Notes under the pieces: model-generated
What the model saw: the letters and a program-made list of their open reading frames with translations, nothing else
The model's database searches: none
What the model was told of the DNA's origin: nothing
Shown here: positions 6,589 to 41,142 of the stretch, piece by piece
Numbering within the stretch: the stretch's first letter is position 1
Layout of the letters: every line of letters starts with the position of its first letter
DNA from: Geomonas sp. RF6
GTDB taxonomy: Bacteria; Desulfobacterota; Desulfuromonadia; Geobacterales; Geobacteraceae
Assembly: GCF_021044625.1 (NCBI RefSeq)
Contig: NZ_CP087999.1
Span: forward strand, 4,361,001 to 4,425,000
Direction: 5' to 3'
Length of the DNA stretch: 64,000 nucleotides
Position numbers and translations under genes: made by a program

Positions 6589-7029
6589 TTACCCAGCGTG
6601 GCGCTGGAACCAGCTTAGAATGGCCTGCAGCGGCTGCGCTCCCGTCAGTTGATCCGCCACCTTCCCCTGCTTAATCAGGAATATGGCCGGGATGCCCCGG
6701 ACTCCGTACCGCCCCGCCAGATTCGGGTTTTCATCGGTGTTCACCTGCACCACCGCACCCTTTCCCGCTATTGATTCTGCAACCTGTCGCACCACCGGTG
6801 CGAACGAGACACAGTGCGGTCACCACGGCGCCCAGAACTCGGCAAGGACCGGTCCCCTGTAGCTGCTCACGAAGTCGTCGAAGGCCGCCTCGGAGAGCAC
6901 CCGTGGGTGCGCGTACAGAGGGGGGAGCTCCGCCTTGCAATTGCCGCAGTGCCCGGGTACCCCTTCCTTCTCCTCCGGGATGCGGTTCTCCGTCCCGCAG
7001 GAAGTGCATGTGATCAGAAAGCTTCCCAT
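6589..7029 (-). CDS. trxC: Thioredoxin 2-like protein with in-frame TGA at the active site (probable selenoprotein)
   Basis: Read through one TGA codon (6822-6820), the frame gives 146 residues. An N-terminal zinc ribbon has Cys pairs at 8/11 and 28/31, as in thioredoxin 2. A full thioredoxin fold follows: the strand before the active site is VLAEFWAPW, then codon 70 is TGA, then PHC (71-73), then VSFAPVVRQVA and NTDENPNLAGRYGVRGIPA with the cis-Pro. So the WCxxC motif becomes W-U-P-H-C. Both sides of the TGA are in the same frame and fully conserved, which argues against a decayed gene. A hairpin of SECIS type follows the TGA. The start at 7029 has an AAGGAGGC site. Expected role: cytoplasmic disulfide reductase with a selenocysteine nucleophile. 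Confidence 0.87.
6784..6822 (-). promoter_or_regulatory. Bacterial SECIS-like hairpin directly after the TGA codon
   Basis: In the mRNA the TGA is followed by 23 bases and then a three-base apical loop GGU. The loop closes a perfect 7-bp stem, TCGCACC/GGTGCGA, and a lower CTG/CAG pairing extends it. Bacterial SECIS elements sit within the coding region just after the UGA and carry a G/GU in the apical loop at roughly this distance, as in E. coli fdhF. The match supports recoding of the TGA as selenocysteine. selA, selB and selC are not in this window. Confidence 0.78.
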
Positions 7030-7104
7030 CGGTTGCCTCCTTTTACTCCAGATAGTTCCTCTCCCGTTCCGTGCCGCGCCCCGCTCCTCACGGTGCCTCT
7101 ATCC

Positions 7105-7995
7105 CTAGTAGATCCTTTTGCCAAAAAGCGAGGCCGCGAGTTCCACGGCCAGTAGCGCCGTCCGGTTCTTCTCGTCCAGTATCGGGTTTATTTCCACGAT
7201 GTCCAGCGCGCAGTGGCGGCCGGCATCGGCGATGATCTCCATGAGAAGTTGCGCCTCCCGATAGGTGAATCCGCCGGGGGAGGGGGTGCCTACCCCTGGG
7301 GCTGACAGGGGGTCGATGCAGTCCATGTCGAGGCTTACGTGAAGCCGGTCCCGGTGCTCCAGTCGCTCCAGTGCCTCCCTCATGACGTTACCGGCGCCGC
7401 GCTCGTCTATGTCCCTCATGGTGTAGACGGCGACGCCACTCTTGCGCAGCTGCGTCCGTTCCTCGGCGTCCAGGTCCCTGATCCCGATCACCACCACGTC
7501 CTCGGGGGAAACCTTCGCCCCGGGGCGCCCCACCTCGACGAGCTGTGGGTACCCGTGCCCCAGGAGCACCGCGAGGGTCATACCGTGGATGTTGCCGGAA
7601 GGGGAGCTCTGCGGCGTGTTGAAGTCGCCGTGCGCATCAATCCAGATGAGTCCCGCGGGGGATATGTGGGTTGTCCCCCCTATGGAGCCGATGCCGATGG
7701 TGTGGTCTCCTCCGATGAAAATCGGGACCCGCCCCCCTTCCACAGCAGCGCGACCGGCGTGATAGGCGGCCTCACACGTCTGCTTGATCGCCGGGAGGTA
7801 ATGCTGCCCGCGCTCTTCGTTCACCGTCTCCCTGATCGGGACCGCGAGGTTACCGCTGTCGTGGATGTGGTACCCGAGGGAGGCGAGACGATGGGCGAGT
7901 CCGGCATAGCGCACAGCGCCTGGGCCGAGGTCGACGCCGCGGTGGGTCTGTCCGAGGTCGATCGGTACCCCTATGATTTCTATGGTGCCTGTCAT
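7105..7995 (-). CDS. rocF: Arginase
   Basis: 296 residues of the ureohydrolase family. Manganese ligands are visible in GGDHTIGIG, in DAHGDFN and in SLDMDCIDP. The SPSGNIHGM segment and the ending [11 protein letters not shown] are typical of arginase rather than agmatinase. The start at 7995 is the first residue of the fold ([13 protein letters not shown]). It hydrolyses L-arginine to ornithine and urea in the cytoplasm. The gene just upstream on the same strand (14 bases apart) encodes an ornithine cyclodeaminase-type enzyme, so the pair could turn arginine into proline. Confidence 0.9.
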
Positions 7996-8009
7996 GATCG
8001 CTCTCGCTG

Positions 8010-9098
8010 CTACTTCAGGTTGTGCCAGATGTTGACCATGAAATCCTGCACGTTCGTCAGGATGGCCATCGCCTGCGCGGAGCCGCGGTTGGCGAGCTTG
8101 TCGACGCAGAACTCCGTCATGTCCACCACATAGAAAAAGACAGGGCGCACCGTGCCGTCCTCCATGACGTGGTAGCTCGGCACCATGTTGCCGAAGGCGA
8201 TGCTGTGCAGCTGTGTCGCCAGGGCGAGGACCGTGGTGGCGCGGCGCGCGTACTGCCGCATGGCGTCCTGCGCCTGGTAGACGTCGGAAATGACCTCCGG
8301 GAGCGGCCCGTCGTCCCGTATGGAGCCGGCGAGGAGGTAGGGAACCCGGCACCGCTCGCAGGCGGCGATGATGCCGTCTTGCAGGTTCAGTTCCCGGATC
8401 GCCTTCGAGATGGAGCCTGCCTGCCGCACCTCGTTCAGTATGTCCAGGTGGTTGTAGTGTCCCCTGGGGCGCAGCGTCTGGGTGTAGATGTCCTGCCCGA
8501 GTCCGGTGCGGAAATGTGCCGCCTCGAGGTCGTGGGTGGCGAGCGCGTTCCCCGCAAGGAGCGCGTGGCAATAGCCTGCCTCCACCATGAATTGCATGGC
8601 ATCCCTGCTATCCTTGTCGAAGGCGACGGCGGGGCCGAGTACCCACACTATGTGGCCGTGCTCCCGGTCGTGGCGCAGGACACGGTACATTTCGTCATAG
8701 GAGCGTGAAAAGGGGGTCTCCCTGGTGCCGCGGCTGCGGAAGGTGAACTTGTCGCAAAGTTCAGGATCGTCGCACACAAACCCGGTGCTGTGCACGTAGA
8801 TCCCTTCTTCGCCGTTTTCCGTTCTCCCGATGACGACGGGATCTCCCTTCCTTACCCGGCGCGCCTCCACCACTTCGAGGGCGCTTTCCTTGAGAACCAT
8901 CACGGCGTCCATGCGGCTTTCGCGGGCGAGAAGCCAGTGACCGCCGCCGAGGTGCACGTACTCCGGGTGGTTGGAGGTGCCGTGGAAGTCTCTCGGGACG
9001 ACGCCGTCGGCGGGAGCGGGCTCTGTGCGCACCGTGCGCGCCTGCAAGAGTTCCGGTGTGTCGAAATCGGGAGGAATATAGACAGGGATGATGGACAT
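8010..9098 (-). CDS. TIGR00300-family protein (LOR/SDH-like), probable ornithine cyclodeaminase
   Basis: 362 residues from the ATG at 9098, which is preceded by a weak GAGGCGG site; an in-frame ATG 30 codons upstream adds a sequence unlike the family. Family-like stretches include HPEYVHLGGGHWLL, DKFTFRSRGTRE, the nucleotide-binding-like HIVWVLGPAV and RGHYNHLDILNE. Proteins of this family in methanogens were linked to ornithine cyclisation to proline, and a related domain forms the C-terminus of cyanobacterial arginine dihydrolase/OCD fusions. The adjacent arginase gene supports ornithine as the substrate. It is not related to the classical mu-crystallin-type OCD. Activity is inferred from family and context. 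Confidence 0.75.
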   Translation of the reverse strand: MSIIPVYIPPDFDTPELLQARTVRTEPAPADGVVPRDFHGTSNHPEYVHLGGGHWLLARESRMDAVMVLKESALEVVEARRVRKGDPVVIGRTENGEEGIYVHSTGFVCDDPELCDKFTFRSRGTRETPFSRSYDEMYRVLRHDREHGHIVWVLGPAVAFDKDSRDAMQFMVEAGYCHALLAGNALATHDLEAAHFRTGLGQDIYTQTLRPRGHYNHLDILNEVRQAGSISKAIRELNLQDGIIAACERCRVPYLLAGSIRDDGPLPEVISDVYQAQDAMRQYARRATTVLALATQLHSIAFGNMVPSYHVMEDGTVRPVFFYVVDMTEFCVDKLANRGSAQAMAILTNVQDFMVNIWHNLK

Positions 9099-17628: not shown

Positions 17629-18009
17629 ATGACCAATGTGCTGGTGGTGGATAAAGACCAGAGCGCCAGGAAGATGCTGGCGGAACTCCTCACCGAGGAA
17701 GGATACGAGGTCAGCGTCACCGGGTCGGCTGCGCAGGCGCTCTACCTCGTTCTCAAGAAACGCGCACAGGTCGTCCTGCTCGGGGAGGAGTTCGACGATG
17801 CCGGCATTGCCGAGCTCGTCCCGATACTGAAGCAGCTGAACAAGGAGATGAGCATCATCCTCGTCTCCGACGATCTCCCCCTCGCGCTGGTTCGCAAGGT
17901 GCGCAAGGAGGGGATCTTCTACCACGTCCTGAAGCCTTTCGGGCGTGACGAGATCAGGCAGGCGGTAAAATGCGCCTTTGCAAATAAGGGTTTCTGTTCA
18001 GCCTTTTAA
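17629..18009 (+). CDS. Receiver-domain protein lacking the phosphoacceptor Asp
   Basis: 126 residues with a full receiver fold (VLVVDKD, VTGSAAQAL, VVLLGEEFDDAG, IILVSDD, LKPFGRDEI). The phosphoacceptor position is Gly (G52, LLGEEF where LLDxxM is usual). D8 and D10, S80 and K102 remain. It therefore cannot be phosphorylated in the normal way and is probably a protein-protein interaction or atypical receiver. It sits between two paralogous small membrane protein genes, 18 bases before the second, so it probably works with them. Confidence 0.82.
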   Translation: MTNVLVVDKDQSARKMLAELLTEEGYEVSVTGSAAQALYLVLKKRAQVVLLGEEFDDAGIAELVPILKQLNKEMSIILVSDDLPLALVRKVRKEGIFYHVLKPFGRDEIRQAVKCAFANKGFCSAF

Positions 18010-38529: not shown

Positions 38530-41142
38530 ATGAAGAAAAGTTTTACTGCCGTTGCCTTAGCTCTTGTTACCTCTTTCACCAGCACCTCGATGGCCGCAAC
38601 CTTTCCTCCGGCTACGTCCCCTGCGCAAACGACCGCACTTTCCGCCTTCCCGGCGCAGCCCCCGCAGCTTCCCGCCGGCGCGTTGTCCGGCGCGGTTTCC
38701 GGTGCAGGGCTCACCCTCCGCTCCGGGGTGCCGAACCAGCAGCCGCAGAGCACCGTGCCTGCCGCGCGCCCTGAACCCGCCCCCCCGGTCCAGCCTCAGA
38801 CGCAGCCGTCCCAGCGAGGGTCCCAGGAGCAGCCCGTGGCGCAGGCGGGGGGGCAGGGGACCCCTGCGGAGAACGCGGCCTCGCAGCCCGAGCAGCGCTC
38901 ACCCCTCGAGCGCGCCCTTGCCGAGGACGTCCCCCGCAGCGACAAGGTCATGCAGTCGCAGCAGTTTCAGATAGGGGAGATCTCCCAGTTCGGCTACTCC
39001 TTCTTCCGTCCCGACAGCACCGGCTTCGCGCCCCAGACCGACGTCCCGGTCGGCCCGGAGTACGTCGTGGGGGCGGGGGACCGGCTGGTGGTGAATATCT
39101 GGGGCAGCTTCGACGGGAGCTACGAGCTCGAGGTCGGCCGCGGCGGGGAGATCGTGCTGCCGCGCGGAGGGGCCGTGAAGGTGGCGGGTCTTCCCTTCGG
39201 CTCCCTCCCCGATCTCTTCCGCGCAAAACTGGGGCGCACCTACCGCGACTTCCAGCTCAGCGTCACGATGGCGAAGACGAGGCTCATCAAGGTCTACGTG
39301 GTCGGGCAGGTCAATGCCCCCGGCGACTACACCGTAAGTTCCATGTCCACCCTCATAAACGCCCTCTCCGCCGCAGGGGGCCCCACCAAGAACGGCTCCC
39401 TGCGCAATATAAAGATCAACCGCAACGGCAAGGTGATAGACACGGTCGACCTCTACGACTTCTTCCTCAAGGGGAACAAGGGGCGCGACATCCGCCTGCA
39501 GCCGGGGGACACCGTGCTCGTCCCGGTGATCGGCCCCGTCGCCGGGGTCGCAGGGAACGTGCGGCGTCCGGCGCTTTACGAGCTGAAGGGTGAGCGGACC
39601 CTGAAGGAACTTCTCGAGCTCGCCGACGGCATCAACCCCACAGGGTACCTGCAGAGGGTCCAGCTTTCCCGGGTGCAGGCACACGCGAAGAAGGTGGTGC
39701 AGGACGTAAGCCTCGACCCCCAGCGGGGGAAAAGCGTGGAGCAGGTCACCGCCGGCATCGCGATCCAGGACATGGACATGGTGAAGATCTTCCCGATCGA
39801 CAACACCATGCGTGACTACGTGAGGCTCGAGGGGTACCTGCTGCGTCCCGGCGATTACGCTCTGGCGAAGGAGACGAGGCTGAGCTCGCTCCTTAAGGCC
39901 GCGGAACCCCTCCCGGAGTACTACGCAGCGGCGGGGCAGATCACCAGGCTCTACCCTCCCGACCTCCATCCGGAAATCATCTACTTCAACGTGGATCGGG
40001 CTATGAGCGGCGACCCGGAGCACGACCTCGCCCTTGCGGAGTTCGACAAGGTGAAGGTATTCGCCCGGTGGGAGATGGAGGAGCTCCCGACGGTGCGGGT
40101 GAGCGGCGAGGTGCAAAAGCCGGGGACCTTCCGCCTCTTCAACAACATGACGGTGCGCGACCTCCTCATGCAGGCCGGAAACGTGAAGGCTACCGCCTAT
40201 CTGAAGAACGCCGAGATCACGAGGCTCAGGCGCAGCGGCTCCGCGGTTACCTCCTACTCCGTAACGGTGGACCTGGCGAGCGTACTGAAAGGGGAGGGTA
40301 ACCAGAAGCTGGAGCCGTTCGACGAGCTGTACGTGCGCCGCATCCCCAACTGGGCGGAGGAGACGGACCGCTACATCACCCTCAAGGGGGAGTTCGTCTT
40401 CCCCGGTTCGTACCCCATCTACCGCGGCGAGCGGCTGAGCAGCGTCATCCGGCGTGCCGGCGGTTTTACCGACAAGGCGTTCCTGAGAGGGGCGAAGTTT
40501 TTGAGGACGCAGGTGCGGGAGCTGCAGCAAAAAAGGATGGACGAGATGCTGCAGCGCACCGAGGCCGAGCTTCTCAAAAAGCAGGGGGAGCTCTCCTCGC
40601 AGGCGAGTTCCAAGGAGGAGCTGGAGGCGACTAAGGCCTCCATCGAGTCGATGATGAAGTCGATCGACCTCCTGAAGGAGAAAAAGGCGGAAGGGCGCCT
40701 GGTGATCCACCTCAAAAAGCCGCAGGAACTGGAAGGGACCCCCTTTGACCTGGAGGCGAACGGCGGCGACGTCATCGAGGTCCCCTCCGACCCGCAGACC
40801 GTCTCCGTGCTGGGGCAGGTATTCAACCCCACGAGCTTCGTGTACACCCCCGGCGACAACGTCCAGGCGTACCTGAAGCGGTCCGGCGGGCTGACCCGCG
40901 AGGCCGAGACGAGGGACATCTACCTCATAAAGGCGGACGGCAGCGTCGTCAGCCGTCAGAGCTCGGGGGGCGGTTTCCTGGGCTTCGGCGGCTTCCTCTC
41001 CAAGGCACTCGACTCCGGCGACACCGTAGTCGTGCCGCAACGGATGGAGAAGGTTGCCTGGATGCGGGACCTGAAGGACATCGCCACCATCCTCGGCCAG
41101 ATCGCGGTGACGGCGGGGGTCGTTCTGGCAGCCGGGCTGTAG
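38530..41142 (+). CDS. SLBB-type polysaccharide export protein (Wza-like)
   Basis: 870 residues, much longer than Wza (~380). Signal peptide KKSFTAVALALVTSFTSTSMA without a lipobox Cys. A Pro/Gln-rich linker (~25-140) is followed by a poly_export domain (PEYVVGAGDRLVVNIWG) and several SLBB domains (VVGQVNAPGDYTV, VAGNVRRPALYEL, RLEGYLLRPGDYAL, VSGEVQKPGTFRL, LKGEFVFPGSYPI, VLGQVFNPTSFVY). A coiled-coil segment lies near residues 660-720. The C-terminus ends in a hydrophobic helix. It should form the outer-membrane/periplasmic export channel. First gene of the operon, 46 bases before the dehydrogenase gene. Confidence 0.92.
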   Translation: MKKSFTAVALALVTSFTSTSMAATFPPATSPAQTTALSAFPAQPPQLPAGALSGAVSGAGLTLRSGVPNQQPQSTVPAARPEPAPPVQPQTQPSQRGSQEQPVAQAGGQGTPAENAASQPEQRSPLERALAEDVPRSDKVMQSQQFQIGEISQFGYSFFRPDSTGFAPQTDVPVGPEYVVGAGDRLVVNIWGSFDGSYELEVGRGGEIVLPRGGAVKVAGLPFGSLPDLFRAKLGRTYRDFQLSVTMAKTRLIKVYVVGQVNAPGDYTVSSMSTLINALSAAGGPTKNGSLRNIKINRNGKVIDTVDLYDFFLKGNKGRDIRLQPGDTVLVPVIGPVAGVAGNVRRPALYELKGERTLKELLELADGINPTGYLQRVQLSRVQAHAKKVVQDVSLDPQRGKSVEQVTAGIAIQDMDMVKIFPIDNTMRDYVRLEGYLLRPGDYALAKETRLSSLLKAAEPLPEYYAAAGQITRLYPPDLHPEIIYFNVDRAMSGDPEHDLALAEFDKVKVFARWEMEELPTVRVSGEVQKPGTFRLFNNMTVRDLLMQAGNVKATAYLKNAEITRLRRSGSAVTSYSVTVDLASVLKGEGNQKLEPFDELYVRRIPNWAEETDRYITLKGEFVFPGSYPIYRGERLSSVIRRAGGFTDKAFLRGAKFLRTQVRELQQKRMDEMLQRTEAELLKKQGELSSQASSKEELEATKASIESMMKSIDLLKEKKAEGRLVIHLKKPQELEGTPFDLEANGGDVIEVPSDPQTVSVLGQVFNPTSFVYTPGDNVQAYLKRSGGLTREAETRDIYLIKADGSVVSRQSSGGGFLGFGGFLSKALDSGDTVVVPQRMEKVAWMRDLKDIATILGQIAVTAGVVLAAGL

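Follow-up and report, generated by a model that had tools for sequence, protein, structure and literature searches.

A thioredoxin gene of Geomonas sp. RF6 with a predicted selenocysteine at the active site

Selenocysteine thioredoxins of Geobacter and the gene described here

Thioredoxin was listed in a 2006 survey as a selenoprotein of G. metallireducens, G. sulfurreducens, and G. uraniireducens (PMC1794560), and was found again in 2007 by a stop-codon-based method as GSU3446 of G. sulfurreducens (PMC1914089); this prediction was the only literature found on GSU3446 itself. A thioredoxin with the UxxC motif is also present in the selenoprotein inventory of a 2026 review, according to which thioredoxins containing selenocysteine (Sec) are adapted to efficient work at high substrate concentrations (PMC13188914). 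The novelty implied by an initial sequence-only reading of the locus considered here is thus forestalled by the 2006 and 2007 reports. The gene is nevertheless a clean, well-supported example of a recoded gene that conventional open reading frame (ORF) calling splits and that was found by reading the raw sequence.

The gene lies in the window, a stretch of 64,000 nucleotides (NZ_CP087999.1, positions 4,361,001 to 4,425,000) from the 5.26-Mb single-contig genome of Geomonas sp. RF6, where it occupies positions 6589–7029 of the minus strand. It has 146 codons, including one in-frame TGA, followed by a TAA stop, and its translation from 7029 to 6589 yields the 146 residues MGSFLITCTSCGTENRIPEEKEGVPGHCGNCKAELPPLYAHPRVLSEAAFDDFVSSYRGPVLAEFWAPW-U-PHCVSFAPVVRQVAESIAGKGAVVQVNTDENPNLAGRYGVRGIPAIFLIKQGKVADQLTGAQPLQAILSWFQRHAG. 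This confirms the single frame with one TGA at the catalytic Cys codon noticed in the sequence-only reading, which did not state the strand. The TGA (6820–6822, minus strand) is codon 70 and occupies the position of the nucleophilic, N-terminal active-site Cys in W-A-P-W-U-P-H-C, the resolving Cys73 being retained. A Shine-Dalgarno sequence AGGAGG, read directly at 7036–7041 of the minus strand, is located 6 nt 5' of the ATG (7029–7027). In the conventional ORF list the gene appears as two fragments of 69 and 68 amino acids, as had been foreseen for standard gene callers.

The thioredoxin domain (residues 44–141; 6607–6900, minus strand) matches PF00085 with 92 bits at a cut-off of 23.5, and the match runs continuously across the TGA position. 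It is preceded by a CxxC...CxxC ribbon (residues 7–33; 6931–7011, minus strand). The protein is of the Trx2 type by architecture, and to this extent the label given to it earlier stands; however, the curated models are narrowly missed. The ribbon, with all four of its cysteines present, scores 26.9 bits against Zn_ribbon_Thio2 (PF21352), just below the cut-off of 27.1, and the NCBIfam TrxC equivalog (NF008229) gives 112.3 bits at a cut-off of 125 when C is substituted for U, so the protein is not classed as TrxC. Three other near-complete matches to the thioredoxin model, one of them above the curated thioredoxin cut-off, were found in the genome, all without TGA; therefore the Sec thioredoxin is not the sole thioredoxin of the organism.

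Upstream of the gene (7105–9098, minus strand) lie a member of the arginase family and an ArgZ-like gene resembling arginine dihydrolase; the two form an arginine catabolism pair with no relation to thioredoxin. A promoter and terminator scan gave no promoter-like site for the thioredoxin gene, and its sole terminator-like site precedes the gene, close to where the arginase-family gene ends. The mobA-like, arginase-family, ArgZ-like, and other neighbors were unmatched in the flanks of the gene in 36 relatives, so the genomic context adds nothing.

The hairpin and the selenocysteine machinery

Downstream of the TGA, at positions 6787–6803 of the minus strand, is a candidate bacterial SECIS element, the stem-loop UCGCACC-GGU-GGUGCGA. 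The perfect 7-bp stem and the GGU loop were described correctly in the sequence-only reading, but the 23 bases it placed between the TGA and the hairpin are the distance to the apical loop, the stem itself beginning 16 nt after the TGA. Published constraints on bacterial SECIS elements are a stem of 4–16 bp, a loop of 3–9 nt with G within its first two positions, a loop 16–37 nt after the UGA, and an energy of at most -7.5 kcal/mol (PMC13188914). With 7 bp, 3 nt, GGU, 23 nt, and -16.3 kcal/mol (for a 50-nt stretch), the element agrees with all of them and with the bSECISearch consensus throughout, its 3-nt loop being at the small end of the range. On the other hand, under loose criteria a stem of this length or longer accompanies 7.8% of the TGA triplets in the window, and the fold z-score of the hairpin region is about -1 against shuffles; taken by itself, therefore, the hairpin is weak evidence and is not significant in the single sequence. 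What sets it beyond chance is that 71 distinct TGA orthologues conserve it, whereas most orthologues with Cys have lost it.

A search of the window for other selenoprotein candidates covered 15 TGA codons having open flanks and a C near the U, and only the thioredoxin stood out. The read-through candidates at 17630 and 55006 on the plus strand and at 38950 on the minus strand had no Pfam match.

All four genes of Sec synthesis and insertion, for which a search had been proposed, are present in the genome above the curated cut-offs: selC, encoding tRNA-Sec (77.4 bits, cut-off 47), selB (373.6 bits, cut-off 242), selA, which adjoins selC (611.9 bits, cut-off 268), and selD (351.9 bits, cut-off 125). 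The selD gene (G000:C1:2535725-2536639, L140) carries an in-frame TGA of its own, MTADKIRLTTMVQAAG-U-AAKLGP (...AAG-U-AAKLGP), and SelD is, judging from this codon, likely a second selenoprotein of the genome. Given this TGA and the Sec machinery, UGA recoding is expected in the organism independently of the thioredoxin. Among the relatives, no selB or selC match was obtained in the draft assemblies G086 and G090 (96% and 92% complete), whose thioredoxin copies (L034, L026) have both the TGA and the hairpin; the missing genes are most simply explained by assembly gaps.

The internal UGA is almost certainly decoded as Sec by means of the downstream SECIS. This reading is supported because the frame, the machinery genes, and the conservation of both the TGA and the hairpin are observed directly, from which we infer the insertion of Sec itself. 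The product would be a cytoplasmic thioredoxin with an N-terminal metal ribbon and a U-P-H-C active site. SelB carrying Sec-tRNA would bind the stem-loop in the mRNA, with its GGU loop 23 nt past the UGA, and decode codon 70. The selenol of Sec70 would then attack substrate disulfides, Cys73 would resolve the mixed selenenylsulfide, and the protein would be regenerated, as we assume, by thioredoxin reductase. Zinc as the ligand of the ribbon and the physiological substrates are both putative.

Orthologues and alternative explanations

When 196 related genomes were searched at the protein level, about 88 close orthologues were found in the order, most of them with exactly one in-frame TGA. In 97 fetched and aligned copies the active-site codon is TGA (76 copies), TGC (14), or TGT (7), and no other codon occurs. 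Removal of identical and damaged copies left 71 distinct Sec and 12 Cys sequences. Of the 71 Sec sequences, 70 form all six inner pairs of the stem, and the first base of the loop is G in every one. Counted from the loop, pair three varies between A-U and G-U, and pair six, C-G in 67 sequences, has changed on both sides to U-A in four (L129, L131, L135, L136), which is compensatory. Pair seven occurs as U-A or U-G and, in L124 alone, as A-U, again with compensation; one sequence has a mismatch there. The stem or the loop is lost in 10 of the 12 Cys sequences, being intact in L113 and nearly intact in L133.

Codon usage follows the same pattern. Over the hairpin-encoding codons 6–10 after the TGA, pairs of Sec forms with the same residue use the identical codon in 94–100% of cases, compared with mostly 26–64% at neighboring degenerate codons and 19–65% at codons 6–10 of the Cys orthologues; since the orthologues are related rather than independent sequences, these codon and pairing figures are descriptive and not a statistical test. 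The contrast between the Sec and Cys sets is nevertheless large and in the expected direction. Close relatives thus mostly have TGA with a conserved hairpin and not TGC without one; as selB and selC are also present, the initial proposal of a selenocysteine thioredoxin is supported.

Several individual copies deserve mention. The copy L114 of G020 has both the TGA and the hairpin. Five genomes (G005, G019, G052, G064, G114) each contain two separate TGA-bearing thioredoxin copies. The two copies of G005, and likewise those of G019, sit far apart in the tree, which suggests lateral transfer or an old duplication. In the copy L036 (G018:C76:3625-7047), a CGA within the hairpin region has become a second in-frame TGA, and the match also contains a TAA; this copy looks damaged, either because it is decaying or through an assembly error.

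Three other explanations of the TGA can be weighed against these data. UGA is partially mis-decoded in bacteria generally, and an ORF starting from the GTG at 6795 exists mechanically. Hence the codon might be read as Trp or Cys by suppression, or the downstream half might be translated separately from this GTG by coupling. We regard both variants as very improbable: the only alternative codons at the site are TGC and TGT, the genome has a complete Sec pathway, the GTG (6795–6793) falls within the hairpin (6803–6787), and a downstream half without the active site would not make a working thioredoxin. Still less probable is a pseudogene, in which a recent nonsense mutation to TGA has broken the thioredoxin so that no full-length protein is made. 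The stop codon does interrupt the frame, and the damaged appearance of the G018 relative would fit such a decay, but 71 distinct orthologues from many genera share the TGA at exactly this codon and conserve the downstream half, the site otherwise contains only Cys codons, and the hairpin is conserved with compensation; for the family this explanation is refuted by conservation. Finally, a sequencing error in place of a true TGC, one base away from TGA, is hardly credible, as the same TGA recurs together with the hairpin in dozens of independent assemblies, including single-contig genomes.

Exchange of Sec and Cys, and comparison with known systems

Apart from the Sec decoding of the RF6 gene, the orthologues bear on the history of the active-site codon. 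A maximum-likelihood tree of 84 rows, rooted with two Cys outgroups, nests the 12 close Cys forms at three separate positions within the Sec clade, and its well-supported branches require no fewer than four changes between the Sec and Cys labels, counting the outgroup step. Rooted in this way, the tree would be explained most simply by a single gain of Sec followed by three reversions, the outgroups being long branches and the root not firm. We consider it fairly probable that Sec was ancestral in the thioredoxin clade of the order, with three or more later reversions to Cys: one in a clade of ten Cys rows, one in L113 of G106, and one in L133 of G057. In each case selB and selC are kept in at least some members. 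Within the ten-row clade, neither selB nor selC was matched in G098 or G115; both genes are present in the other Cys genomes. The hairpins following the TGT or TGC codon in L113 (G106:C35:26457-27185) and L133 (G057:C297:7269-7943) would be relics of recent changes from Sec to Cys, and both genomes keep selB and selC.

No change from Sec to Cys in thioredoxin is recorded in the 2006 survey, which did describe SECIS remnants in FdhA and HesB-like proteins (PMC1794560). If the reversions are real, they would reveal Sec-to-Cys traffic in a family for which that survey had none, and would provide natural pairs for gauging the speed of SECIS decay after the codon change. The Sec and Cys orthologues, occurring side by side, form a convenient set for comparing both chemistries in one protein.

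Among described proteins, thioredoxin 2/TrxC (PDB 2ppt, 7d6l, 3p2a) shares with the RF6 protein the N-terminal CxxC...CxxC ribbon followed by the thioredoxin domain, and the alignments cover both. The differences are Sec in place of Cys, with W-U-P-H-C instead of the usual W-C-G-P-C, and scores just below the curated cut-offs for TrxC and the Trx2 ribbon. With the Sec-thioredoxin family including GSU3446, the protein shares the UxxC motif, the single TGA at the N-terminal Cys, the PF00085 domain, and the bacterial group; in this likeness, drawn from the published descriptions, no difference of substance was found. The gene is thus a further orthologue of the known Geobacter selenoprotein, sound rather than new.
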